From NCBI GenBank assembly GCA_029817715.1, contig JARUPY010000229.1:496001-560000 (forward strand): a DNA stretch of 64,000 bases, in the 5' to 3' direction. The notes under the pieces were generated by a model, which worked only from the letters and a program-made list of their open reading frames with translations, had not been told where the DNA came from and did not search any database. The position numbers and the translations under genes were made by a program. Positions within the stretch are counted from its first letter, which is position 1. Every line of letters begins with the position of its first letter. Below are positions 2,951 through 59,690 of this stretch, in pieces. Origin of the DNA: Melastoma dodecandrum. Lineage: Eukaryota; Streptophyta; Magnoliopsida; Myrtales; Melastomataceae.

Positions 2951-3187
2951 ATGCGATCATATTTCTGGTATGTTATCTCGTTTGGTCCTGTTTTTGTATC
3001 TCGAGGCTAACTGCGCTAGGTTATTAGCTACTACATTTTCAGCACGTCCCACAAATTGAAAAGTTATATCTTCGAATCGTGCGATTAGCCACTATACCAT
3101 CCAAACATAGGGTAGCAACATGCCTTGACACGCGCACTCCTTGTTAACCTGGTTAAGAACTAACAGAGAATCTCTCCTGATTCGGGC

Positions 3188-7894: not shown

Positions 7895-10676
7895 TTAGTC
7901 GCGCCGGCCTCGCTCTTCCTGTATCGACCTGAAGATACGGGCAGCCGACTCTGAGGCTGATTTACGGTTGTGAGGGACGACCTTGATGACACTGCCTCTT
8001 GGCCGGTCGCTGCTCTGTGTCTCGACCGCTGCTTGATCCGATGGTTGTTCCACGGGGAAGAGGAGGAGCGTGGATGCGCCCTTCGTTAGGTCCATGGGAC
8101 TGCTTCCTGTACTCCCCTGCGTCTCGCGGAACTTCTGTGACTTGCTCCCGTGTTTAGAGACTGATACCACTTTGCTTACCTGCGTCGATACATTGTGCGA
8201 GCTCGGGGGATGGAACTGACTTAAGTTGGCTTCCCCAATTGAGAAGCGGCTGTCCGTAGGATTCATCACCGGCAAGCTGATGGGAGGAAAGTAGGAATGG
8301 TTGAGGCCGAATCCCTGATGATGATGATGAGAAGATGGAATCCTGAAGGCAGCGCTTGGGTCCCTGAGAGTAGGACCGCCGCTTATTGGTACACAACCTC
8401 CATAAACTGGTGCCATAAATTCACCACTGATCGGAGGGCAGGGACCTGTGTATGGTTTGTACACTAGACCTTCTGAAGGCAACATGACTGGAACTAACCA
8501 GTGGTTTCCGGCAGCTGGGTAACACATTGGATAAGCCATTTGTTCTGGCCTCTTGGCAAAGAGATCCTTTCTGATGTCACTGTTTATGGGGGAAAGAGGA
8601 ATTTTCGCCGTCGGAGGTTTTCCTGGAGGATTCCCACTTGTTTGATCTTTCCGGGACGACTCAAAAGGACGTTCCGGAGGGGCTTCTATTGTTCGAACGG
8701 TTTCAGCAGGAGGCTTTAAAGTGCCAAGGCCACAACTAACGAGAAGATCAGGAGATCTTGAAAGCAATTTTTGTACCTTAAAAAGGAGCAAAATGACGGC
8801 AGTTTCATCAAATATGAATCACCAATTGATTACATGAAGAGATTTCAAGCAAGGAAGAACTAGAAATTACCTTTATCAATCTGTGCAACTCGAATACTTG
8901 CACTCCGAAAACTCTTTGTTGACTGCAGATAGCAACACAAGCCTTAATATAAGAACTGGCAACATGTGTCTGTGAAGTGTTAACAACATGAAAAAAATGA
9001 TTTTTCTAGTAAAGATCCTCCAATGAGAAATCATTAGACGCACTAACAATAAACATATAACTCGGATATCTCCTACACCAACAAGGCATGACAGTACTAG
9101 CATCGAGAAATCTTGAATTCAACACATTCCTCGGAAGACAGCACATGCCTTGATGAGCTGAAAAATAGTCATAATGTACATATGCCCAAAATAAGAAAGA
9201 ACAGGCAAATTTTTTAGTGTGTGCCATCAAAATGAATTCATTCCTGAGATAAGAAGCTATGCATCCCCTCATAGAGAAGTGGCAGAAAATTGTGACCGAG
9301 GGAAGCTATATAATAACTTCTGTTAGAAAGTGAGTGAAAAGAGTTTCTTACTCGATCATGGCTCTTCTTGTTTTCCAAAATAGCTTTTCACCAATTGCTC
9401 CAACAACATCATCCGGCAGAATACCTATTACGGATGCAGACTCTGCGATGACCATGTCTGGAAACTGACATCTCTTAGTCGCTTTCACATCACATTGCTG
9501 GGCCTCATTGCTCTTGCCATCACCTTCTCGTGTGTCATGGTCTGTTTTATTCTCAGATTTGGCTACACTTGTAGCGTCTCCTCTAACTGAGGTCTCATTT
9601 TTCTGGAAAGAATGACTGTCTTGCAATGGGCCCTTAATTCTGGGCAACTTAGGCGATGCACCTGATGAATTGCTCATACACTCTAAAGTAGCAGATTCGC
9701 GGGGCCGCTTTGGCGGCTTGCATCTACTATTACCATGGGATGGCGATGAAGATGCATTAGATGCAACTCTTGCTGAAAGGGCAGGATCCGGAGTCTCTCT
9801 AGGGCCAAGGCTTTCTGTACACATTTCATGCTCATTCGAAACTGGATCTTGTGAATTCATTCTGCACTGGTTCTTCCCAGGTCTCGCAGGTTCAGCCTTC
9901 TTCTCTAAACAACTCTGCTTTTGGCTGGAAGAACCCAGATTGGAGCAAGGGTTTCGCTCGGATAATTTCTCATTCCAATCATCACAATATGTAATAGGTG
10001 TCAACTTTGCCCGTTCTAGAACCACAGCATCATCTTCCCTTATCCGCTCTCCCCAAACTGGCGCTTTGTCACCTTTCATTCTTTCGAGAAAAGTTGGATT
10101 GGCACTAGAATTCGACGAATGCCGCATTTTCGATGCTCCAAAATGTGTAGTTATTGCAGTCTTTGGATTTCCTTTCTCCTGTGTTGGTGTTAACTTGATA
10201 CCCAGAGTAGTAACATCACGTTTCCCAGAGAGATACTTCACTGGTGAGCTAGAAGTCGGAGTCAGCAGGTTGATCTGATATGCCCCGCTCTACAATCAGA
10301 AGAGTTTGCCACGATTAGGAAGAACGAAATACAGAAACAGAAACAGAGAGATGACCACATACCTCTTATACCAACCACGCATTATGGAATTACATATCAC
10401 AACCTATCAGATCTCAACAAAAATAACAACGACACGTACAGACGTCGGTCGTGCTGGAGAAGCTGAAGAGGCCGCCCCGTTTTGTGACGCAGGGGAAGAC
10501 GGCGACACGGCCGTCGAGCTGAACTTCTGCAAAGGGATGCTGTGTTGCTCATACAGGGCCATCTTGTTCCTCGGGGGAGCCCTCGGACCACCTTTCTCCC
10601 TGTCATTCACATGCAGCCGAGGGAACAGGGGACTCATCTGCTTCCCCTCGTCTTTCACATCTTTCATCATCATCAT
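7895..10676 (-). CDS. ELF3: EARLY FLOWERING 3 (ELF3), evening-complex scaffold
   Basis: Four exons on the minus strand: 10676-10440, 10289-9352, 8922-8871 and 8776-7895, giving 702 aa (Arabidopsis ELF3 has 695). ELF3 is a nuclear scaffold that joins ELF4 and LUX in the evening complex of the circadian clock and represses growth and flowering genes. The family blocks are all present: FPRLHVND and [16 protein letters not shown] (about residues 20-50), the ELF4-binding core region ending in [18 protein letters not shown], then [19 protein letters not shown] across exons 2-4, and the C-terminal block [30 protein letters not shown] opens the prion-like domain. That domain here has a run of only four His and no polyglutamine tract. 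The start was chosen at the first ATG of an ATG run; the conserved block begins about 17 codons later. Introns have GT-AG ends and phases match. Confidence 0.95.
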
Positions 10677-42559: not shown

Positions 42560-44580
42560 AATGACAGCTTCATGCTTAAGCGAGTTATTTGTATATTCAC
42601 CATCTACTTTATAAGCTAACTTATGGTGAACTTCCAAAGGAGACAAAATGTATATACTGACACCACATCCATGTGTCGATACAGAACCATCAAATCATGC
42701 TTCCCAATATTCATCTTCTTCTTGTGGAGAATCTAAACTCTCCCCATAGTTAGCAAAAAAATCTGCTAACACTTGCCCTTTGACCGTTGTCTGAGGTCGA
42801 TACTGTAAATCAAAAGGAGAATGAATGAGACTCCATTTGCTTAACCGACTAGTGAGCAATGGGCTAGAAGAATGTCTTCAATATGGGAGTGGTAGAAACT
42901 ATGTAGACAATGCTAATTCTAATATAATGCCGTATTTTCAGCACATAGTAGTATACTGAAAGGCATAACTTCTCATTCTTCGAATATTTGTCCTCAATTG
43001 GAATCAGAATATGGGACAAGTAGCACACAACACGTTCTTTGTGATTTTCATCCTCCTGGGCCAACAGCGACCCAATGACTTATTCTCCGACAGCAACATA
43101 TAGAATGAAAAGTTGCCCAACCTTAGGAGACACCAACACTGGAGGGTTAGTAAGGTAAGCTTTGATTGTTCCAAAGGCCAGCTGATGATCCTTTGTCCAG
43201 ACAAAATCAGCCTTACCTCGCAATAAAGTGGAAAAAATTTTTGTCTTTCCAATGATATTGCCAATAAAACGTCTTAGATAATTTATTGGACCTACGAAAC
43301 CTTGCAGTTGTTACTTTATCGAAGGAGGACAAAGATCTTGAATAGTCATAATCTTTTTAGGATCAATCTAAATCCCCTTTTTATGTACTAAGCAAAAAGT
43401 AAGTCTGCCACGAAACCCGCTGATATAAAAAAAAACAACCAAAGAATTGCCCCGATCGAACGCCGAACGCACAAGGGGTTCAATTTTAGGTTATGTTTCC
43501 TCATGTGTGAGAAAGCTTGTCATAAATATCGTCGTGACAATCATTTGATATGGATTTGACAACAATATCGTCGATATATACTTCTACAGTTTTCTCAATC
43601 GAAAATAAGGTTCATCGCTCTGTGGTATGTTTCCCCTGTGTTTTTCAATCCGAACGGCATGACTACCCATTCGAAAACACAGTTTTGTAAATATCTTCCT
43701 TGGCGATGAAAATTTGGTTGTATCTAGAATATCCATCCGTGAAGGATATGATTGGATGACCAGAAGTTTTGTTGATCAACTCATTGGCAATCGGCAAAGG
43801 ATATTCACTTAAGTGTCTCTTTATTTAAGTATCTGAAGTCGATGCATACTCCCACCCTACCATTTTTCTTCTTTACAAGTACAATCGATGATATTCAATC
43901 GGTATATCTGGAAGTTCAAATATATCTGCGACAAAGAGTTTCTTTACTTCGTCATACACACTTTGGTAATACTGAGCTGGTATGCGTCACGGTGCTTGCA
44001 TGACCACTTTTACATTGGGTTTTGTTGGGAGTTTATGTTCCATGAAACTTATATCTAAACTTGGCATTTCAGTATAATTTCAAGCAAAACAATCTTTAAA
44101 TTCTTACGGAGTTCCCAAGATCGAATGGAAAATGTTCTGTTCCCAAGTTCACCATCTTAAGAGCATCGCACGGTGTCATTAATGATTGTCGATCTTCGGA
44201 AGAACCCAAGTCGAATTGAAGACAAAACGTTGTTTTGTTTATTATAGGATGCATTGCAACACTAGCCAAACCTTTACAATTTTAAACGAAGGATCGACTC
44301 ATCCTCTTCAGCACGCTGGTTGGGACTATCAACGTCCAGCGAACTGGCATCTAAACACAACCCTAGACTTACTTTAGGCCTTGTTAGTCCATACACTCGT
44401 AGTCGCTCCATGACATCTGCGACTACGTCTTCTTTCTCATGGTTAAGCATCACTTTCCTCCCGGATGAGTTTGTCGGGCTCCACATCCGGGTTAGTAATT
44501 TCATTTCCTTTCGCACTATTAACGTTCCTTTCATCATCATCGAGCCCAAGCACTGTTTTTATTGTCTGAAGTCTTTCAGC
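42560..44580 (-). pseudogene. RT and RNase H remnants (element C)
   Basis: On the minus strand the YIDDIVV catalytic box of RT lies at about 43570-43590. RT-connection pieces follow at 43264-43004, and RNase H pieces at 43064-42864 (ENHKERVVCYLSHILIPIE, LCLSVYYYVLKIRHYIR). The second RNase H start, with FDGS wording, is near 42680. Multiple frameshifts break the domain. Downstream of about 42560 I find none of the integrase blocks seen in A and D. Confidence 0.7.
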
Positions 44581-44955
44581 TAACTTTTCCTCACGTTGAG
44601 CCTGCGCAGCGGATTCAACTTCCTCAGGGACTTGGTTAGAATCCCAACCAGTGGGTGCATCGACGTCTGGGTGAGGGGGACATCCATAAGTGACAAGATA
44701 CTCGAAGGTCTCGGATGACTCACAAAGTGGGCCAACATTTGGGTCACCAAGATTATACCTCTTCTTGAAGCTGAGATCTTTAACAGTTCCAAAACAACTT
44801 CTCCTGTAAAGATTTCAACTATGTTAATATTGGAAATAAGAATCGGTTCAGTTGGAATTACTTCCACTTCCGATTCTAGCCAAAATATTAATTCTCGATA
44901 AAGAGTAGAAGGAATAACAATAGCCTTATGCAACCAATCTCTCCCTAACAAAGCA

Positions 44956-45276
44956 TTAAAAGTAGTCGCAACATTGATAACAAAAAAGGCAGTATTCAAC
45001 CAAGTGCCCCACTTTTAGTCGAATAGGGATTGTGCCTATACTCTTTAACATCAAGCCATTGAAGCCACTTATAGTGATGTCTGTGGTGTGAAGGTCATCT
45101 CGACTCGAACCAAGAAAATTAAACGTACTCAAAGGGAGCACGTTCACTGTGGCTCCATTATCAATCAAGACTTTCTTAATTCGAATGTCATTGAAATCTG
45201 CCTCAATATATAAGAAATGTATATGATATTGCATCGAAGCAGTGTCTTTCGAAAACCAGTGAACCGGAAAGCCCAC
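44956..45276 (-). pseudogene. Aspartic protease domain (element C)
   Basis: The 106-codon open frame contains KKVLIDNGATVNVLPLSTF, the retropepsin active-site block (Asp-Asn-Gly here), and ITISGFNGLMLKSIGTIPI, the second conserved block. It lies between gag and RT as expected. The wording is close to the protease of element D, but here the catalytic Asp is kept. Confidence 0.8.
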
Positions 45277-45982
45277 ATGTCAGCGAACAACTTGCGAAGT
45301 CGAATGTCCAGGGTTACCTGTATCTTGTCGACTCATACTTTTGTCCGCAAATTTTGAAGGAAGCATTATCATATTACATTCGACGGGCCAACGTTCGGAC
45401 TCAGGAAACCATCCTTAATAGAATTATAATCCGAGTCATCGAACTCATCGTCACCCAGAGGAGTAGGATGATTGAATCGAATCGTGGGTCTACGGGGTGC
45501 TATGTCAACAGCAGGTTCTTCTGGGTCGACACGACAGACATCGTTAGCCTCTCGATACTTCATCTTTTTTTCCTTTGCACTCCTGCGACGTCTTTCCTTC
45601 CTTCTCTTGTTACTTCGAGTGGTATCAGACCCATGTTTGCTCACCTGTTGCCAACTATCATCGATGTGAGTTCTAACTTTATATGCCTTTGATCGACAAA
45701 AGTCATTAGTGAAATCAGGGTATACCTGGATGTACTGCCTCAAATGAGGATCTTATCCCTCTACAGGAGAAATTACATTATTAACAGCATCGATACAAAA
45801 TATCTGATTAATCTCGCTCGTACCTAATTTTGGCGTCTTTATGCGTGTGATCTCGAACATGTCGGCAGGAAATATGACAATCAACTTCTGGAAATAGTTG
45901 TAAGAGCATAGATTGCAGAGTCGTGAGATCAAGATCCTCTGCCTGAGAATGGGATGACATCTGTTACACACATCATCAGCCT

Positions 45983-47960
45983 CTAGGAATTGAGCAATAG
46001 GTGGGCATCTTTGAGCACTCGTGCATCGAGCCTAGGAGCAGGTCCCAACCTATCTTTAACGTCTCGAGAAGCATACTTAGCAGCTTGGCTAGCCTGACCC
46101 TCAGATATCTTAGAAACATCGGTGGCCTTCTCAGTCGAAGCAGAGTCACTAGTGGCAGGAGTAATCATCCCGCTGTTAGCAACAATGCGAGTGGCCCCCT
46201 TCTGAGGCTTGATAGAGCCTTGCTTTCCTTCGGCCAACCTTCCCTTGTCAAACTTTTTAGCTATGGGTTCAGAAGGGAAATGCCTATCAACAGCCCTTGT
46301 AGGTCCTTTGCGATTGATCCCCAAGGCAACTTTCTCGATCGGAGTAAGATCGAACCACGCTTCAGCTTGGTGGGATTGGCGAAACTTCTTGAAAGTGAAA
46401 CACCTATCCGTGGGATGGGTGTCATCCATATGCCACCAACAGATTTCATTCTTGAGCTTCAAAGTTTGAACAGGGAACAAAACAATTCCATTCTTCAGGA
46501 GTCGTTTGAACAGATTATTAGCCACATAAGTTTCACTCAAAATATGCGATCCCCGCGAGGCAGAATCGACAACATCAACTACGTTTACTTCGAAAGTATG
46601 TACCTCATAATTAGGGAAATATTTGTTATCGACAGAAGTGGGTTCGTCTGACTCTTTAAAATAGAGGACTTTAGACTTAATCAAGTCCTGAATGAGATTC
46701 CTAAAAGTTAAGCAATCGCGGGTTGTATGTGTAAAGGATCCATGCCACTTGCAATAACTCTTCTTCTTTTCCTTATCAGTTTGTGGCAGTCGATGTCCAG
46801 GTTTAAGCTTGATTCGACCCCGATCTTTGAGCCAATTGAAAATTTCGTTTGCTTTGTCCACATCGAACGAATATTTGCGCCCTTCATTCGATTTTTGGGA
46901 AGCCTTCGCTTTGAAGTTTTTCTTGGCTAAAACATCATAGACCGTCAATTCTTCTTTGACGAATTCAACCATGTCTACTTCGATCAGGGAAGTTTTGACA
47001 TGATATGCTGACTGGCCTTCCGATTCTTCTCTTAAGAGGCTTTCGTACTTAGTGGCCCTTTGGGCAAAATTGAATAAATCTTTGAACCTTTCTTCTTGGA
47101 TCCATTTTTGAATCCGAATATCAAGAGCATCTTGTGTTATTTCAACAACTTACTCCTTGGTAACAAAAGTTTTACATCTACGTCGAGCCTTCTGAAACCG
47201 TTGTAAGAATGTTGCCGCCAACTCTCCAGGTTGCTGCTTCATTCGAGTTAATTCGGCTATCGTAATGATTGAATCCAACGTAGCAAACGCTAACATGAAT
47301 GCTTTTACATTTCTTGCCAATTTTGGATCGAGTTGGCAGGCAGGTGAATGTACCAATTGAACGCCAAACCGGTTAAAGAATTAGGGAATAACTGAAGTTT
47401 CCAAAAATCATTATTGGAAGGTTTGTCAGTCTGGTTAGTGAATCGAGCCATGTGTTCCAATGGTGTCACATCATCTTTGCCAGAGAATCTAGTGAAATCC
47501 GAAATTTTGTATCCATTCGGATAAGAATAATCCATGTCGAGGTAATCTGGATAAGGTGTTCTACAAAAGTTCATATCTTCCCTTCGCACTATACCAGGAA
47601 CCATCTGCCTTTTTTCTCTCGACTTGGAGCCTTTCCTTATCGAAAGCTTGCCTTTCGAAAAGGTTCCTTCTCACCGGGAAATCTGCAGGGGGAAACCTTC
47701 CAGCATCTTCGACTATCGATCGAGTGTAAAAACCCTCTCGTCGATGATGGGGTGGCGCATAAGCAGTTGGTCTATACTCGCCCTCACTGTCATCGTTAAA
47801 GTTCTATCCCAAATGTTGACCACGCGAAACTGGAGTATAGGGCCCTCTAATTTCCTGTGGGACCCTGAGCCTACTAGTTCCAACATGATACTCATCACTT
47901 GGTTGAAAATTTTCTTGACCCAAATTCTGATCAAAACCGAATTTGCGCTTTCCTTACAAA
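45983..47960 (-). pseudogene. Gag remnants (element C)
   Basis: Main pieces: 47604-47305 (TPLEHMARFTNQ, FWKLQLFPNSLTGLAFNWY), 47356-47150 (QQPGELAATFLQRFQKARRRC) and the long 46972-45983 frame. The last holds the zinc-finger-like YCKWHGSFTHTTRDC and CWWHMDDTHPTDRCFTF and a Lys/Ser-rich tail. It is homologous to the gag of the gag-only element, but here the region corresponding to that element's internal stop is open. Frameshifts interrupt it elsewhere. Confidence 0.8.
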
Positions 47961-48249
47961 GTTGACGTCAGACTTGCCTCTGCATAACCAACAAATTCTC
48001 CTACATCTGCATCTGCATCCTCAGAATCACATCAATACTGACGGTTCATTGAGAATTCTGATGATCAAATCCTGAGAGAGGCGGATCTTGCAGATTTTCC
48101 TGGGCATTTTGTTGTCCATTCTAGGGATCACCAACAAATTTGGTTTGATCACCCGCATTGTTTGTTTCAGAATCACTACGATTCGTAGCCATTCTCGATA
48201 CGCTCCGCGTTATTGGCATTTCGCGTTTTCACACGAAACTCGTTTCCGA

Positions 48250-50814: not shown

Positions 50815-52289
50815 TCACATCTCTTCAGAACATGCAACCGTTTTTGCCGTGGCCATGAAGATCCTGCGAATAGAGTAGACCGCACGAAATACATAAGACG
50901 AACGGAGGAATTGGTTTCCGTGATTTGATAAGGGCCGGTTCTAGATGCTTACCGCCAGGGTCCATCACCGACAAGCATCATGTCTCCCTCGTGATTCTCG
51001 CACACCAGGGTGTATTCCCCGGTTTCATCCAACAAACCGGTTATGGGTTTCTCTGCTTCGTGGTCAGAGTAATCTGTTTGCGTTGAACCAAATTAGCGGA
51101 ACAATAGGATGTTGTTACCTAGATGCCCCATGTATGCCAAATAAGAGATATAATGTCACGAATTAAAGACATCTACGAACCTGCAAGCAGGCTGCGGAAA
51201 AGCTCGTCCGCTTCCGTTGCCAGCTTCCCGTTGCTTTCGCAGAACTTCAGGTCCACCTTCCTCCCGATAGGGACACCGTCCATATTAATCTTAACAAACA
51301 AGCCCTTCGACTGTACATTTGCGGGCTTCTCGAAATCAGCTTTCTTAGAGGTGACGTTCCGAGTCTCCGAGACGGGTTGCAGCTTCCCGCAACTCGACGC
51401 GACAATGTTTCCCCGGTGCGACCGTATAGGAGGCCAACCGACGACAGCAGCCGGAGCACGCCTGAGTCATTGTCCAGTAACTTGGTCAAAGCCCAACAGA
51501 AGGCACTAGGACTAGTAAAAAAACAAGCACATGGATCAAAGTTATTCCCCAAAGGGCAACACCACTAAATTGCAGATGGCACCAAGTGAGGGGAAGGGAG
51601 ATGTTTGCTTAGAGAAAGGTGATAAAACTGACGGGAAGAAACACTTGGCAAAAAGGGAATAAATTGAATTCTCGATCCACAAAGGAGGAATGTGACACTC
51701 CACCACACTCTTTATTCACACTCCCCATGTATATAAAGAAAAACACATATTCCGAAGACAATAAAAACAAAGAGAACTAGTAGCACAGTACAACTCTGGG
51801 ACCACCCCGAATTGCAGGAAAGCGATGCACAGTGGAATTGTAACCCCATTTTCAGTATTTGTTCTTGTGAGAAAGAGAAAGAATATGCCCATGTCCCAAT
51901 AGGACAACGCAGAGGGCATTGCCACATTCACACCAACAGGGGAGCGGCAAGAAGAGACAAATAGTAAAGAAAAAAACATGGACGTGGTGGGAATAATACC
52001 TTTTCTGGGATTTCTGCACAGCTGTGGGGAGGGGTGGCGGTACAATAGATGATTCCCCACCATCCCCTTCCTTCTCCTTCAGGTAAGGGGAAGGGCGGGT
52101 GGTAGTGGGAGTAGTAGTAGTAGTAGTGGCCAAGGAGAGGAAATGACGAGTCCCTAGATTCCCCTTCTTCTTGCATGGTTCCTCCCCAGGAGGACCAAGG
52201 GTCAGCTCCAAGGCTGAGTTTCCCTCTTCATTCTCCTCCAATCGATGGCATGCCTTGGAGGGGTTGCCGCCCCTCGCAAAGCGCTCCAT
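50815..52289 (-). CDS. Aux/IAA auxin-response repressor, last exon apparently frameshifted
   Basis: Four exons: 52289-52000, 51461-51181, 51073-50953 and 50863-50815, giving 246 aa as read. Aux/IAA proteins repress ARF transcription factors and are destroyed through TIR1/AFB when auxin binds. Domain I (EAR) is LELTLGPPGEE; domain II is the degron VVGWPPIRSHR; domain III starts GLFVKINMDGVPIGRKVDL with the PB1 Lys; domain IV has EYTLVCENHEGDMMLVGDGPW. The ATG at 52289 (MERFARGG) is preferred over an upstream in-frame ATG at 52547 because the latter lies beside the TATA box. The frame ends at TGA 50815. The family tail after FMATAK continues in another frame past a five-A run (T run at 50841-50845), open to a stop at 50748. 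Confidence 0.9.
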
Positions 52290-52548
52290 TCCGCTGTTGC
52301 GCGAAAGGCAAGTTGGGGGCGAGCTTTTCCCGATGCGAACAGAGAGATTCCGGAAAAGGGAGAACTGAGGACAAATCCTGAAACGAGTGACAGGGGAGAG
52401 CGGTGACCCCTGAATGAAAGAAAGAGGGGATTTGACCCCGGAGAATCTGGGAGGGAAATCACTTCGTAGGTAATAATGAATGAAATAGAATGGGCCTAAG
52501 AAAGCAGCGCAGACGCAATCAAACCAAGTAACATCCGAATTCCTCATC

Positions 52549-52558
52549 TCTATATATA
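52549..52558 (-). promoter_or_regulatory. TATA box of the Aux/IAA gene
   Basis: On the minus strand CAGATATATATAGAG lies about 260 bp upstream of the chosen ATG, in an otherwise GC-rich leader. Confidence 0.5.
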
Positions 52559-52695
52559 TCTGGGTGTGATCTGACTCCCTGGCCCACCACTACCTTTTCT
52601 CTTCCCTTTGGGGTTGCGTTTCGTTTCTATCAAAAGCTGTCATTTTTTCTTCTGTTTGTCGTGTTATGATGATGACGCCTATGTTCTTGTTCCCC

Positions 52696-52701
52696 TGTCT
52701 C
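52696..52701 (+). promoter_or_regulatory. Auxin-response-element core TGTCTC upstream of Aux/IAA
   Basis: TGTCTC on the plus strand (GAGACA in gene sense), about 140 bp upstream of the TATA box. ARF factors bind TGTCTC, and Aux/IAA genes are usually auxin-induced. A single hexamer is weak evidence. It lies only about 40 bp from the foldback insertion. Confidence 0.4.
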
Positions 52702-52729
52702 CGTTCGGACCAATCAGATTTTAAAGTGG

Positions 52730-52738
52730 CAGGTAGAT
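52730..52738. repeat. Left target-site duplication of the foldback element
   Basis: CAGGTAGAT, identical to 53856-53864. Confidence 0.9.
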
Positions 52739-53855
52739 GGAAGAGGCTAACGTTACGTGCACGTAACGTTACGTAGTTTACTAAATTTTATTAATCGGTT
52801 AGTAAAATTTACTAACTTTTTTAGTAAATTTTACTAAACAGTGACCATTTTTTTTAGTAAAATTGTTAGTAATCGGATACTAACGAGGTTAGTAAATTTC
52901 ATTAGTAATTTACTAAACCCGTTAGTACCCGATTACTAACGTTACTAACCCCGTTAGTATCCGATTACTAACGTTACTAACCCTGTTAGTATCCGATTAC
53001 TAACCTTTTTACTAAAAAATTTGTCTTGATTCGTAAAATCGGTAGTAATCGGATACTAACGGGGTTAGTAACGTTAGAAATCGGATACAAACGGGGTTAG
53101 TAACGTTAGTAATCGGATACTAACGGGGTTAGTAACGTTAGTAATCGGATACTAACGGGGTTAGTAAATTACTAATGAAATTTAATAACCCGGTTAGTAT
53201 CCGATTACTAACGATACTAACGCCGTTTGTATCCGATTACTAACATTTTTAAAAATTGTTAGTAATCGGATACTAACGGGGTTCGTAACGTTAGTAATCG
53301 GATACTAACGGGGTTCGTAACGTTAGTAATCGGATACTAACGGGGTTCGTAACGTTAGTAATCAGATACTAACGGGGTTCGTAACGTTAGTAATCGGATA
53401 CGAACGGGGTTAGTAACGTTAGTAATCGGATACTGACGGGGTTAGTAACGTTAGTAATCGGATACTGACGGGGTTAGTAAATTACTGTAATTTACTAACC
53501 CCGTCAGTATCCGATTACTAACGTTCCTAACCCCGTTAGTATCCGATTACTAACGTTACTAACTCCGTTCGTATCCGATTACTACCGATTTTACGAATCA
53601 AGACAGATTTTTTAGTAAAAATGTTAGTAATCGGATACTAACGGGGTTAGTAACGTTAGTAATCGGGTACTAATGGGGTTAGTAAATTACTAATGAAATT
53701 TACTAACCCCGTTAGTATCCGATTACTAATAATTTTACTAAAAAAATGGTCACTGTTTAGTAAAATTTACTAAAAAAGTTAGTAAATTTTACTAACCGAT
53801 TGATGAAATTTAGTAAACTACGTAACGTTACGTGCACGTAACGTTAGCCGCTTCC
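52739..53855. mobile_element. Foldback (giant palindrome) transposable element built from 32-bp subrepeats
   Basis: The ends are GGAAGAGGCTAACG and, inverted, GGAAGCGGCTAACG, next to a perfect 20-bp palindrome ACGTTACGTGCACGTAACGT at both ends. Each arm then reads inward through TACGTAGTTTACTAAATTT, AATCGGTTAGTAAAATTTAC, AACAGTGACCATTTTTTT and TGTCTTGATTCGTAAAATCG in the same order, so the arms pair for over 400 bp. The rest is copies of a 32-bp unit, CGTTAGTAATCGGATACTAA followed by CGGGGTTAGTAA, in both orientations; the unit itself is a small hairpin (GTTAGTA and TACTAAC). A perfect 9-bp target duplication flanks it. No coding capacity. Long inverted ends plus a 9-bp duplication suggest Mutator-like mobilisation. 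Confidence 0.9.
53256..53420 (+). repeat. Tandem array of the 32-bp unit at the foldback centre
   Basis: About five consecutive copies with period 32, GTTAGTAATCGGATACTAAC then GGGGTTCGTAAC. The GTTCGTAAC variant is restricted to this central block, which suggests local amplification. Confidence 0.9.
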
Positions 53856-53864
53856 CAGGTAGAT
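53856..53864. repeat. Right target-site duplication of the foldback element
   Basis: CAGGTAGAT, identical to 52730-52738. Confidence 0.9.
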
Positions 53865-53867
53865 ACA

Positions 53868-54536
53868 TGCCCCTAAAATACAGAATTGAAGTACGATAAA
53901 TTTATTAAGGAGGCAGACGTGGAAATACATCGGGTGAAAGTTTACGGACGAAGTGGTTATCAAGTCACGGGGCTATCAGACGACGAGGTTCGATGAAGTT
54001 ATCAAGCAACAGTCAATTGAATGAGCGGGAAAATACTGCGACGAAGACTAATGGGCGATCCGGTCGATCAGTAGCTGTTATGGGAAGATTCCATACGATC
54101 TCAAGACATGGAAGGGAATTGTTGCCAAAATTGCTCAAATGGAAAGGAGATATTCCATGAATATTGGCAACAAGAACACGTAATATATGTGCAATATTTC
54201 ATTTCCGTACATACATAAGTCTAGCCTAGTATAAATAGTTGTTCTTAGGCATTATACAAACACACTTTTCTATAGACGGACATATAGTTCTTTTATCTTC
54301 AAGCAATCCAGCGTTCAAGCATCCTATGCTCCTGCATTCTTACTCCTTCTGAAGGCATCGTCGATGGCATCCGTAAGTGCTTTCGCTTAAGGGTGTCAGC
54401 CCGCTGCCTTCTCCTCTTTTTCTTCATTCATACGACTACCACACAACGAACCTCCGAATACTAGTTGCTCGTAGTGCCAGAAATTTCCGATGTATTTAGA
54501 TCCCGGCTTGTTCAACGGTCACTTTCGGAGCGAACA
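53868..54536 (+). mobile_element. 5' LTR of gypsy element D
   Basis: The right end GAGCGAACA at 54536 is followed at seven bases by the primer-binding site, as in the other copies (CGCGAACA in the gag-only element). A TATA box AGTATAAATAG lies at about 54228, and ACACACTTTTCTATAG follows where transcription would start. The left end is uncertain because no second LTR is visible; TG at 53868 is a guess. Confidence 0.6.
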
Positions 54537-54542
54537 CACCTT

Positions 54543-54560
54543 TGGCGACTACAATGGGAG
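54543..54560 (+). other. Primer-binding site of element D (tRNA-Arg type)
   Basis: TGGCGACTACAATGGGAG is the complement of the tRNA-Arg 3' end, with two substitutions relative to TGGCGACCACAGTGGGAG in element C. Confidence 0.75.
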
Positions 54561-54572
54561 TCTAGACCAATA

Positions 54573-56760
54573 ATGCCGAGAACCAGACGTGGTACCGATT
54601 CAAACGACCTCGGAGATAATCACTCCAACGGGCAAAATAACAGCGATGGAAACAACTCGAACCCAGTCATGACTGAAGAACCTTCTACCATCATGTGTAC
54701 TCTCCAGGAGAGGCTAGTGCTATCGATCAGAAGTACATCGCCTTCAAAGAGAAAATCGTCTCCAAGAAGTATGTCGTCATCCAAAATCTAGAGACCATAT
54801 CAGGAGTGCCCATAAACAGCCCTGGTAAGGAGAAGGGTGAATCGGCCACCAAACACCAACTCGACTAATATGCTCATAGGGCATCAATAGAGGAGGGGAA
54901 GAAAAGGCCGACTTGGGGGACATTCTTATTATCCCCACAGGCCCCAATGGGTTTTGCGCACAATAATCGACCACTTGTGATAAACGAGGGTAAAGCAACC
55001 ATGCTACATGATCATCAGGCTACATATCAACCCTCGTTTCGAAGGAGGGAAGATCCCTATATGCTGGTAGAGAATGAATCTTTTCATCCTTTTGAGGACC
55101 ATCGACACTCTGAGTACATTCCTCAGCTCGTACGAGGAAGATGGATGATCATGCAAGAGGCGATGACTCCACCGGGTCTCATGCCTGAAATAAGAGATTA
55201 TGTAGCCCCACTAGTCGAGCAAGCGATCCCTAGGGCAAACAATATGAATGAGGTTGAACTCTATCGAGCTCCTTACCCTGACAACATGACCGGGACTATC
55301 CTTTTCCAAGGGGATATCGTGTGCCTGAATTGGCCCGTTTCTAGGGCGAAGAAGGCATTTCGCTTGTGGAATATATCGCCCGCTTCACTCACCATGCTGG
55401 AGAAGCCGCCACTAATGGGTTTTGGAAACTTCACCTGTTTCCCACTAATGGTTTATCAACCTTCCCCCGAATTCGGTGAAAAATTGAGAGGATATGCATG
55501 TGCAATTTATTCTGGCACTGACCCAGCTGTGACACTGCAAGACCTTACTCACATTAAGCAGCAGCCTGGGGAACCCGTGGCAGTATTTCTGAACAGACTT
55601 TGGAAGGCAAGGCTGAGATGTAAAACCTTTGCATCTGAAGTCGTGCTCATAGCCATAGCTCAACATTTCCTCCTTCTTCGGCTTAGGAAAAAGTTAGAGG
55701 GAAAAGTGTTCAGGGATTGGGATGAGTTTGCTAGAAGGGCCATTCGATAATGAGAACCTCGTTAGAGAAAAAAACTCGGGCGAAAGGGAGCATGATTACA
55801 ATACGCTTGGTAACCTACCAATCGGAACCAGTTGTAGACGTCGACGTCGTAGAGTATGTAAAGGGGCACCTGACCTATGAAGAGTTGACTAAGAAGAACT
55901 TTCGAGTCAAAGTTTCTCCAAAAACACAGGAGGAAAGGAAATACTCATTCGATGAGGTCAATTCCGATGAAATCTTCGAATTCATGCTTCAAAAACGGGC
56001 GCATTCAACTGAAAATGGGCCATCGATTTCCTCGCACTGATAGAGAGAAGTCTAGAAACTTCTGTAAGTGGTACAGGTCGTTTACCCACACCACTAGGGA
56101 TTGTATCACGTTCAGGAAATTGGTGCAAGACCTAATAGAGTCTAAGGAGTTACACTTCCCAGACTCGGGGTATCAGGCATTAACAGAGTCGCACCCATTT
56201 GGCGACTTGGTTGATATAAATGCCTTTGATGTCAACTGCCTAACTATCTCCCCTTTATTATGCTGGGAGACCGAGACCAATCAATCGAAACTGGTGAGAC
56301 AATCCTCACCAACATGCTGTTCAAGCGGCTCGCGAGCAAGGGAACACTCCAATGTCCCGCTGATCTCAAGAGCATACGACATGATCTTTGTCGCTGGCAC
56401 ATGGATGGTTCCCATACCACTGACATATTTTTAGGAAATACTAGTTGAATGAAAAGAAAGCAGAATAATACGACCTTATCCACCATGAGAATCAATAGTA
56501 GTCCAAGCGTGCGCCCCACCAATTGGAATGAGGGAACTCTACACCCTTAAAGAACTCATGAGACAGGGAATCGTGGGTGAGAGTGAAGAAATTCAAAAAG
56601 AACCTTGTACCAAAAAACTCCACAGGCGACGTGCTATCGACCGCATTTGGCCTCAACAAGCAAAGGAAAATACGAGGCGACAAGATCACCCTCAAGGCGA
56701 CAAGGATGCAATGAGGGAAGGGACTTCGATAGCCTAATTTCTAATAACTGACATGCTTTG
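54573..56760 (+). pseudogene. Gag remnants (element D)
   Basis: ATG at 54573 begins MPRTRRGTDSND, like the gag start of the gag-only element. Further pieces follow: 54947-55750 (YVAPLVEQAIP, LYRAPYPDNM, KQQPGEPVAVFLNRLWKARLR), 55750-56040 (KVSPKTQEERKYSFDEV) and 55952-56434 (FCKWYRSFTHTTRDC, a zinc-finger-like block with Tyr in place of His). Frameshifts at about 54790, 55750 and 56000 break it. Confidence 0.8.
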
Positions 56761-57304
56761 TTACAGGTGTAAGCCTATAGCAGCGCATAAGGTACTCATC
56801 ACCCAGATGTGCTAACTCCGCTGTAATCAGTACTTCCTACTGCTGGCCGACATGGCATCCGAAGGAAAGATCAAGGTGGAGACAGTCGACCGTCCATTAG
56901 ATAATTTGCCTGACTATGAGCCCACCTATCTCTCAGAACCTCCATTAGAAGCAAACCTCAAAACGGGTTATGACCCACATAAGAGGGAATTTGTTCAGGT
57001 CGATAATCGCCTGTAACCTTTCAAACACTCACGCTGCACCAGCGTTCCTGTCACCCTAGCTACATATACATGGCAGAAGGTGGGTCTAGGAGCACAGCTT
57101 CAGGTACCCACTAAGAGGACCAAAAGGCGGAGAGAGAGAAGAGCACGGTGCGCAGCGGAAAAACGCGCCAAACTAGTAGCCTCTGATGCCCAAAAACTAA
57201 ACGAGTCAAGTGAAAGCAACCTTGCGTCCAATACGCTAAGCGACCACAACCCAGTCTAGTCCGGGACTCCACCCGAGGCGAATGGGACTAGTTGCAACGT
57301 TTTC

Positions 57305-57598
57305 ATGCTACCAGCCGAGTTGGCTAAGAAAGAAGACAGCCAGGCAAAAGGTTGTTTGTTGTTCCCTTTCAATCATAATACCATTACTGAAATACCGCGG
57401 AACTTCCCGAGTGGATGTCTGAAAGAGCCTCCTAGATTACTCCGGAAACATATGTTCCCACTGCACATTCAGGCGACGATCAATAACGTTGCGATGCGCC
57501 ATGTCCTTATTAATAATAGAGCAACCATCAATGTGCTTCCCCTTGAAGCGTATGAGCGCTTGGGAGATAACATAACTGATTGGGAAAGATTGACGTGA
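57305..57598 (+). pseudogene. Aspartic protease domain with ruined active site (element D)
   Basis: The frame contains RHVLINNRATINVLPLEAY where element C has KKVLIDNGATVNVLPLSTF. The catalytic Asp is Asn and the Gly is Arg, so the protease would be inactive. The following LTGLLPLV..VSVRL-like and LFGRD*LHKA words (57600-57760) are the rest of the domain in another frame. Confidence 0.75.
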
Positions 57599-58231
57599 GG
57601 GACAGCGGATTTAACCGGACTACTTCCTCTTGTCTAGGCGTAGTATCCGTTAGACTCCGAGTAGGCACACATGAAAAGAAGACGACTTTCTTTATCATTG
57701 ATATAAAGCCTTCATTTAGTGCCCTATTCGGAAGAGATTAGTTGCACAAGGCCGGTGCCATACACTCCACTCTCCACCAGGACTTTCTGTTGTGGGGAAA
57801 ACATGGTTTACATGTTATCACGGAGAGGTGAGTAAGAATACTAACATGCCCTCTGTTTGCGCAAGGGCAGTAAAACAAATCAAAGACATGACACTAGAGC
57901 AAAGATATGCGTTGAGAGACCCAAACGTTGGGCCCTTAGGTGAAGCAGGTTACGAGTTCCTGGTTTCGTATGATGGATCACCCTTGGCACCTCCTCAACA
58001 ACTAATTGTCCCAACTGGATAGGGCGATAAGTTACAGCCTAAAGCTGATGAAGACCTGACCCCGCTTGAGAAAGATATGCGCGAGGCCAGATAGACTTCT
58101 CAACCCGCCTTCGTTCAATGGAGAGTGAAACGCTTGATCAAATATCGGATGTCCTAGAAATACTAGCTAGTTATAAGGCGTCTAGAATAAATGAAGCACG
58201 ATGTAATGTGTTTCCTTAGGCATGTCAAGAC

Positions 58232-59690
58232 ATGCCAAATATTTATTCAATTAATAAAGAAGTTCCTAATGCTTTTGTTATTCCCTATGATCCACTAAGT
58301 GAGATAAACCTAGGGATCACTGATTTACCACGTGTCACCTATCTCAGCTCACTATTAAGCGAGACTGAAGCATGCGACATTAGCAATGTCCTTTGTACAT
58401 ACAAAGATTGTTTCGCCTAGGAATACACAGAGATGCCTGGCATTGATCGAGACTTAGTCGAGCATCGACTCCCGACGTATGACAACTTTAAGGCTGTGAA
58501 ACAAACTCCAAGGAGATGTCACAAGAAGTGGCACAGATGGTCTACGATGAAATTAAGCTATTCAAAGTCAGGATATGTATAGATTTCCACGACTTGAACG
58601 AAACAACACCTAAAGTCGAATACCCAATGTCCATCGCTGACGTCTTATAGACAAATCAACAAGGCATGAGTTAATGTCCTTTATGGACGGATATTCCAGA
58701 TACAATCATATCTTTATCGCGGAAAAGGACATGCATAAGACATCATTCAGATGACTTATCGGGATATTCGAATGGGTCGTCATGCCCTTTGGATTGAAGA
58801 ATGCCGGGGCTACGTACCAGAGAGCAATGAACCTCATCTTTGGCCCTTTGATAGGGACGTCAGTGGAGGTTTACATCGACGACGTGGTAGTAAAATCCAA
58901 GCGAAGGCAGGATCATTATGTTCATCTAAGCGAAGCATTTGAAAAGATCCGAACGCGTAACCTCAAACATAACCCGTTGAAATGCGCCTTTGGAGTCCGA
59001 AAAGGACAATTTCTTGGATTCCAAGTACACCAACGAGGAATTGAAGTTGACCATCTTAAAACTCATGCTATCAGGAACCTCCCTGCTCCTCGGAGCAAGA
59101 AGGAACTCCAAGCCTTTCTCGAAAGGGTCAATTACATATGTTGCTTCATAGGTAATGTGGCGTCTAAACCCAACGCCTTCTCAACAATCTTGAAAGGAAA
59201 GGAAAAGGGACATATAACCTGGACATCCCAACATGAGCAAACGTTCCAAGAAATAAAAAACTATTTGATGGACCCTCTTGTGCTAACGCCACCACATACA
59301 AAGGCGCCATACATCCTTTACGTGGCTGCGTCGCAGTTCAGTATTGGGTCCATGTTAGTGCAAGAGCAAAATGAGGTTGAAAGAGTTGTTTAATACTTGT
59401 CTCGACTCCTCACATAGATGGAGTAGCGATACACCCCAACTGAAAAGATATGCCGGGCTATTTATTACTCATTAGTTAAGCTCAGACATTACATTGGGTC
59501 CAACGATGTGTATGTCGTCTCCAGGACACCTGTAACCAAGGTATTCTTCGACAACCCCCTACTTATGAGAAGGATTGGCAAATGAAGCTTAGTGCTCTCT
59601 GCCTATAATCTATGCCACAAGCCGCAAACTTCAGTTAAAGGGCATGCCTTGGTTGAATTCATCACTCATTATGGTGAAGGTAGCATGGAC
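58232..59690 (+). pseudogene. RT and RNase H, first domain (element D)
   Basis: Pieces in order: EYTEMPGIDRDLVEH (58425), a damaged fingers region, then a 203-codon frame (58782-59393). That frame holds MPFGLKNAGATYQRAMN, VEVYIDDVVVKS (YIDD catalytic box), FLGFQVHQRGIEVDHLK and YILYVAASQFSIGSMLVQEQ. RNase H continues in another frame to HKPQTSVKGHALVEFI at about 59650. The expected second RNase H (FDGSS..) is not found; foreign-looking sequence follows. Confidence 0.85.

Follow-up and report, generated by a model that had tools for sequence, protein, structure and literature searches.

A non-autonomous foldback element upstream of an Aux/IAA gene in Melastoma dodecandrum: a probable derivative of FAR1-type Mutator-like elements with phased TTASTAA heptamers in the ends

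Locus and its features

The window analysed here, i.e. the whole stretch of 64,000 nucleotides from Melastoma dodecandrum, contains, upstream of an Aux/IAA gene, a foldback element that is almost certainly a non-autonomous Mutator-like element (MULE). The features concerned are as follows, with the strand in brackets where there is one:

51173–51463 (−): exon of the neighbouring Aux/IAA gene, PF02309 at 3.1e-23
52254–53622 (no strand): segment absent at the allele-like locus of contig C119
52730–52738: left target-site duplication CAGGTAGAT, identical to 53856–53864
52739–53855 (no strand): foldback element, almost certainly a non-autonomous MULE, 1117 bp
52739–52757 (+): left terminal sequence GGAAGAGGCTAACGTTACG, 19 bp
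52739–52975: left arm of the terminal inverted repeat, in-register part, 96–97% complementary
52748–52771: 24-bp perfect palindrome TAACGTTACGTGCACGTAACGTTA just inside the left end, hairpin of −8.6 kcal/mol as DNA
52778–53816 (no strand): array of 53 exact TTASTAA heptamers
52865–52896 (+): one 32-bp unit
52909–53004 (−): three 32-bp units
53043–53480 (no strand): main tract of 32-bp units, plus runs around a minus pair at 53181–53244
53491–53586 (−): three 32-bp units
53620–53855: right arm of the terminal inverted repeat, in-register part, 96–97% complementary
53623–53686 (+): two 32-bp units
53699–53730 (−): one 32-bp unit
53823–53846: second copy of the palindrome TAACGTTACGTGCACGTAACGTTA, just inside the right end
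53837–53855 (−): right terminal sequence GGAAGCGGCTAACGTTACG (reverse complement)
53856–53864: right target-site duplication CAGGTAGAT

Concerning the neighbouring gene, its first exon is presumably placed in the ORF 51852–52589 by an EAR-like LELTLG spotted by eye, no Pfam match having been found in that ORF, and the start codon is likely to be that at position 52289, 450 bp from the edge of the element. With the PF02309 exon and this start codon, the insertion upstream of an Aux/IAA gene proposed in the initial annotation holds. The perfect 9-bp target duplication described there proved exact at both flanks and correctly placed to the base, and the matching inverted ends were borne out by the 19-bp termini; the ends read GGAAGAGGCTAACG and, from the opposite side, GGAAGCGGCTAACG, with no such matching ends expected in 100 shuffles. 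Likewise, the element had been described as devoid of coding sequence, and no open stretch of at least 80 amino acids was found within 52739–53855.

As for the rest of the window, stretches resembling Ty3/gypsy frames were seen by eye to flank the Aux/IAA region, at 44266–47967 (−) and 54465–59393 (+), the latter including a reverse transcriptase match at 58755–59390. The window also holds a CHUP1-like gene exhibiting 96% identity to a protein of Melastoma candidum, the next matches being from M. candidum (84% and 66%) and then from other Myrtales (about 58%). In another melastome, Barthea, Mutator elements are given, in the portion of the source available, as the most abundant TIR transposons (PMC11939994).

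Arms, repeat units and predicted folding

The segment 52739–52854 is 97% complementary to 53740–53855, and 52849–52975 is 96% complementary to 53620–53746, so that the in-register outer arms cover approximately 237 bp. A third pair, 52942–53135 with 53492–53685 (94% complementary), is offset from the preceding one by one 32-bp unit; because of this shift, the initially claimed pairing of the arms over more than 400 bp stands roughly, with the left arm reaching to about 53135, but only if a slip of one unit is allowed. Compared with its own reverse complement, the element is 82% identical over the whole length. Long, internally repetitive terminal inverted repeats thus make up most of the element, as is typical of a foldback.

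The 32-bp unit, GTTAGTAATCGGATACTAACGGGGTTAGTAAC, is present in 23 copies at up to six mismatches, and its occurrence in both orientations, noted from the beginning, is confirmed by the 14 plus and 9 minus copies. Tandem Repeats Finder detected the period of 32 at 52910–53004, 53043–53480, 53492–53584 and 53623–53685. When folded as RNA, the element is predicted to reach −757 kcal/mol with 1002 of the 1117 nucleotides paired, whereas 20 dinucleotide shuffles averaged −278 kcal/mol and reached −291 kcal/mol at best. A lone unit folds weakly as DNA (−3.9 kcal/mol, z −2.1), and the term 'hairpin-forming', originally applied to the repeats, is therefore truer of the blocks than of the single units. 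It may be added that TACTAAC, found on both strands of the unit, resembles the yeast intron branch-point sequence, so that an RNA transcribed across the element might contain branch points.

It is conceivable, albeit rather unlikely, that the main importance of the element lies in a hairpin transcript that feeds the small-RNA silencing of its own family and of the upstream region of the Aux/IAA gene. The near-complete pairing in the predicted RNA fold is in favour of this explanation, as is the statement, in the available part of the source, that long Mutator-like terminal repeats are often a source of siRNA (PMC10398659); on the other hand, it is silent on why the heptamers described below should be phased, and it is compatible with the best explanation given at the end of this article.

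Copies and insertions in the genome

The genome searched comprises 373 Mb in 607 contigs. The 19-bp end gave, at up to two mismatches, 1439 matches (714 and 725 on the two strands), compared with only five (3 and 2) for the control consisting of the same end read backwards, which rules out both a single copy and a chance palindrome. The 32-bp unit was found, at up to three mismatches, at 2226 sites (1122 and 1104 by strand; control 0 and 0) and, among the first 100 of these sites listed, it occurs in small dispersed clusters without any long head-to-tail array. Within the element, too, the units alternate in short blocks rather than running head to tail over long distances as in a satellite, and a satellite captured by a transposon can be dismissed as stated on these two grounds.

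The target duplications were scored in 34 fetched elements, of which L035 and L037 were dropped as their duplications repeat those of L032 and L033. The count also leaves aside the duplicate fetches of loci counted elsewhere (L003–L006, L008) and 15 stretches with one end (L007, L011–L014, L016, L017, L019–L021, L023–L027), eight of the latter (L013, L019–L021, L024–L027) having been refetched wider and counted in that form. The initial annotation had proposed to count the copies with 9-bp duplications, and these amount to 26 of the 32 insertions scored at up to one mismatch, 20 of them being perfect and the remaining six insertions having no duplication in register; L031 and L046, with a common left-flank 9-mer, may be one insertion. 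The elements range from 544 to 9401 bp. In two pairs, L032/L035 and L033/L037, the two members have the same target duplication, one lying on a small contig and the other on a large one, which suggests haplotigs in the assembly. Clustered insertions were also seen, another element end being located approximately 58 bp beyond the complete element in L036 (second start at 9819) and approximately 650 bp beyond it in L045 (second start at 3142).

A single genomic copy with no empty-site allele had been named at the outset as one observation that would speak against the proposal. The first part does not apply in view of the 1439 end matches; as to the second, no empty site of the window copy was found, the joined flanks giving no continuous genomic match. 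That search, owing to the right flank that recurs on contig C119, led to a locus with a deletion (L054, G000:C119:5092600-5094500), which is 100% identical to the window over 50840–52253 and 99.8% over 53623–54104, with a 5-bp filler AATCC at the junction. Relative to the window, this locus lacks the first 12 codons of the Aux/IAA gene together with the 449 bp preceding its start, and the left-hand 884 bp of the element. When segments of C119 were compared with the window, three matched, at 100% (60000), 99.7% (about 40000) and 97.7% (about 16000); another three gave no match, but their offsets place them beyond the window, so that they are uninformative. The similarity would suit a recent duplication as well as the second haplotype; the deletion itself may be an assembly error at a very repetitive site. 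Since the right end and the right target duplication are present on C119, the deletion would have followed the insertion. If real, the C119 locus would illustrate how an insertion of this kind can disable the gene next to it, the start codon of the Aux/IAA gene having been removed by a deletion that begins within the element.

Full-length elements and their proteins

The ends of the window element are shared by elements of approximately 9.3 kb, i.e. L028, L029, L030, L034 and L036. Their terminal repeats measure 1018–1106 bp with 82–96% identity in the first four and 472 bp with 90% identity in L036. Those of L028 are about 1060 bp long and 94.8% alike, with 15 units in each, arranged in the left repeat as blocks of 1 plus, 3 minus, 3 plus, 3 minus, 4 plus and 1 minus; the unit blocks of the full elements are the same as in the window element.

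A transposase-bearing element with the same ends, for which the initial annotation had advised to look, was thus found: L028 contains a stop-free frame of 703 amino acids matching the MULE (PF10551, 8.9e-27), FAR1 (2.3e-16) and PF00872 (1.4e-7) domains. The residues D250, D312 and E416, invariant across eight aligned proteins, are assigned here as the putative catalytic triad. A SWIM-like CxC..CxH is visible in the same alignment, with no SWIM match in Pfam. The full-length stop-free transposase was observed in five of the 21 loci examined (L028, L029, L030, L031 and L034), and the relatives retrieved by the transposase search exhibit 24–45% identity among the matches listed (120 of 134). In the antisense direction L028 carries a second gene, the first long exon of which resembles PMD at 1.1e-4, i.e. 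below the Pfam cut-off, whereas its later exons, joined by hand, match Peptidase_C48 (Ulp1-type) at 2.8e-10; no homologues of the PMD-like exon were found at E 0.001 among 287 candidates. The elements L028 and L029 share 99.3% identity across 9259 bp and have different target duplications, suggesting a fairly recent transposition, while the other pairs are 94.8–97.8% identical, except for L033/L037 with 99.1% and one common duplication.

The common ends, the 9-bp duplications (9–11 bp being expected for a MULE) and the 9.3-kb partners with the FAR1-MULE transposase make it almost certain that the window element is a non-autonomous foldback derivative of this probably FAR1-type family. The non-autonomous, non-coding, MULE-like foldback upstream of an Aux/IAA gene, as outlined initially, is therefore supported, but not the satellite array packaged as a transposon, since the unit forms part of the terminal repeats in 9.3-kb MULEs whose transposase frame is free of stops.

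Distribution of the heptamer TTASTAA

The heptamer TTASTAA is an odd palindrome, and the 32-bp unit is made of it together with near matches. The window element contains 53 exact copies versus 1.65 in shuffles, with 7 in the remaining 62.9 kb of the window and one in the 6.8-kb interior of L028. Two elements with the ends of the window element, L049 and L051, have no 32-bp units and yet carry 39 and 65 heptamers, respectively; it was because of these two that a strict 32-bp periodicity, ruled out as an essential feature, was abandoned.

For the sampling of further ends, 20 lone perfect ends were chosen by eye in list order among the first 100 of the 1439 matches listed; only perfect matches were taken, and ends already fetched, close pairs and one lone end on C89 were skipped. 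These ends exhibit 264 heptamers within 300 bp inside versus 6 within 300 bp outside. At least 10 heptamers are present in 17 of the 20, while the units occur in 12 and are absent from eight. The exceptions are L067 with four heptamers, in which the repeat is broken off, L070 with none, in which just about 36 bp of the end is left, and L073 with four strict heptamers and 12 with a looser motif. A variant, GTAGTAAA, is present in L047a and L073. TTASTAA, retained in sister elements that lack the 32-bp unit, is the constant deeper than that unit. By eye, a further short sequence (AACAGTGA or its complement) was seen to recur among the heptamers in the terminal repeats of L028, L051 and L063.

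This distribution bears on the view that the heptamer array is the target of a sequence-specific anti-silencing protein encoded by the antisense PMD-Ulp1 gene and acting in the manner of VANC21. The Arabidopsis element VANDAL21 is, like the present family, a MULE with a short motif in its non-coding parts, the packaging of which varies between related copies, and its repeated motif YAGTATTAY is the target of VANC21, as far as the accessible text goes (PMC5735166); the VANDALs differ in that their terminal repeats are described as degenerate (available part of PMC10398659). The concentration of TTASTAA in the terminal repeats, the packaging differing between subfamilies and the presence of an antisense gene with a weak PMD and a Peptidase_C48 match agree with such a view. 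It is nevertheless an improbable one: DUF1985 and DUF287, both given for VANC in the same excerpts (PMC5735166), were not found in the PMD-like exon, the next long exon and the joined Ulp1 exons of a partial gene model, and many plant MULEs carry PMD and Ulp1 genes, the portions of the literature at hand containing no mention of such arrays.

Phasing and retention of the heptamers

The gaps between the centres of the heptamers are mostly 7–13, 20–25 and 31–35 bp. A first spectrum, from the window element alone, peaked at 10.8–11 and was confounded by the 32-bp repeat, for which reason it was repeated on segments outside the unit arrays or with few units. The 78 gaps pooled from four segments gave a best period of 10.85 bp, and the 34 gaps longer than 13 bp gave 10.75 bp, none of 5000 random gap sets (7 plus a geometric term) being as strong in either case; the gaps of an array may descend from one another by duplication, so that these counts are not independent trials. 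Taken singly, L051 and L050 were matched by 0 of 2000 nulls each and L047a by 2 of 2000, the segment of L028 after the units being weakly phased (36 of 2000). Gaps falling off the clusters were 15, 17 and 49 in the phase-tested segments and 14 (three times), 15, 17, 44, 83 and 96 in the sampled ends without units, which otherwise show the same clusters. It should be noted that 32 bp corresponds to three turns of approximately 10.8 bp.

As far as the retention is concerned, L065 and L063, two sister ends with a similarity of about 79%, keep 13 of 17 and 13 of 15 whole heptamers as against fractions of 0.18 and 0.12 for other 7-mers, and L062 compared with L063 keeps 12 of 17 as against 0.22. 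When the heptamers were masked before the alignment, 10 of 17 and 10 of 15 were retained, with 0.74–0.76 of the bases versus 0.63. Since the aligner may favour heptamers and the retention represents one pair of subfamilies, the direction of the difference from the spacers stands, whereas its size does not.

These observations have to be weighed against the possibility that the arrays arose neutrally, as a side effect of slippage and hairpin-driven duplication. The number of units does vary between copies and between arms, e.g. 14 and 9 in L032, and the terminal repeats of Tm1 are likewise reported to vary in the number of a short motif in the excerpt available (PMC3169594). Neutral growth predicts, however, neither the same heptamer and phase in subfamilies without the unit nor a faster divergence of the spacers than of the heptamers, and it is hardly probable as the full account. 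Least probable of all appears an action of the phased TTA/TAA steps through the DNA shape, by nucleosome positioning or bending of the ends with no dedicated protein, since, although the period of 10.75–10.85 bp agrees with TA, AA and TT steps every 10 bp favouring rotational positioning, shape needs no single exact heptamer, and whole heptamers are kept above other 7-mers.

Comparison with known elements

Several described systems resemble the present family, each being compared here to the extent of the published portions available. MuTAnT from Medicago truncatula has long modular foldback repeats, 9-nt duplications and a partner with a mudrA-like transposase, and lies near genes, but it targets TA microsatellites and has 144-bp arms in its 292-bp form, a phased heptamer array not being mentioned in the excerpts (PMC4486113). 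FARE from Arabidopsis is similar by description, as a long-repeat foldback of the MULE class with a MULE-domain transposase (PMC4486113, PMC3169594). The Mutator/Foldback element Tm1 from Meloidogyne shares the composite repeats with a varying number of a short internally redundant motif, the 9-bp duplications and the coexistence of transposase-bearing and small members; it differs by a motif of approximately 14 bp, asymmetric 7-bp terminal motifs and a nematode host (PMC3169594).

In Galileo from Drosophila, also possessing long internally repetitive ends, several sites for the DNA-binding domain of the transposase lie within these ends and the binding was measured; this element differs, however, by its transposase of the P superfamily and by having three sites versus the approximately 50 phased ones predicted here from the sequence (PMC3688188). 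Concerning the proteins, the dicot/monocot subgroup of Jittery resembles the present family in the N-terminal FAR1, with SWIM or CCHC in the subgroup, and several plant MULE groups do so in having PMD in antisense; the repeats are given as 39–292 bp in that subgroup and up to 640 bp in any group, compared with about 1.06 kb here (PMC6446971, parts available).

Proposed role of the heptamer arrays

Based on the above results, the best overall explanation, to which we assign a probability of roughly 0.7, is a foldback MULE derivative with helically phased heptamer ends serving as predicted binding sites. The window element is in essence a pair of long terminal repeats with hardly anything separating them, and its insertion, which produced a 9-bp duplication, was presumably due to the transposase of the full 9.3-kb copies acting in trans. 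The terminal repeats are arrays of TTASTAA one, two or three helical turns apart and, the heptamers being placed at whole turns, the sites would face one side of the helix; in the subfamily of the window element, the array has been amplified as the 32-bp unit of three turns in alternating blocks.

The heptamers are probably binding sites of some element-encoded protein. The first candidate is the transposase with its FAR1 domain, by analogy with Galileo, and the second the antisense PMD-Ulp1 protein, by analogy with VANC21; that it is the transposase can be put forward only tentatively, somewhat short of even odds. Such a protein, most likely the transposase through FAR1, would load cooperatively on the ends, so that a copy reduced to its ends could remain mobile. 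An extended version, decidedly speculative and improbable as a whole, regards the ends as a helically phased landing strip with at most about 50 heptamers per kb-long repeat, on which the element protein would form a one-sided filament that synapses the ends and blocks host silencing, the 32-bp unit corresponding to three filament turns and the motif and protein co-evolving between subfamilies.

Modular ends and 9-bp duplications have already been described for foldback MULEs of Medicago, Arabidopsis and nematodes, and FAR1, SWIM, PMD and Ulp1 are likewise known from plant MULEs; in the parts of the literature covered by the search, nothing was found that names the heptamer TTASTAA, nor any terminal repeat that comes down to a single phased heptamer of changeable packaging. 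The function of long repetitive foldback ends is stated as unsettled, and the Galileo paper of 2013, in its available part, gives the binding to the tandem repeats of the Foldback and Phantom elements as untested (PMC3688188). The present family bears on that question: with one heptamer of measurable phase and retention, a stop-free transposase in the partner elements and several kinds of arrays with common ends, the question of binding becomes directly assayable.
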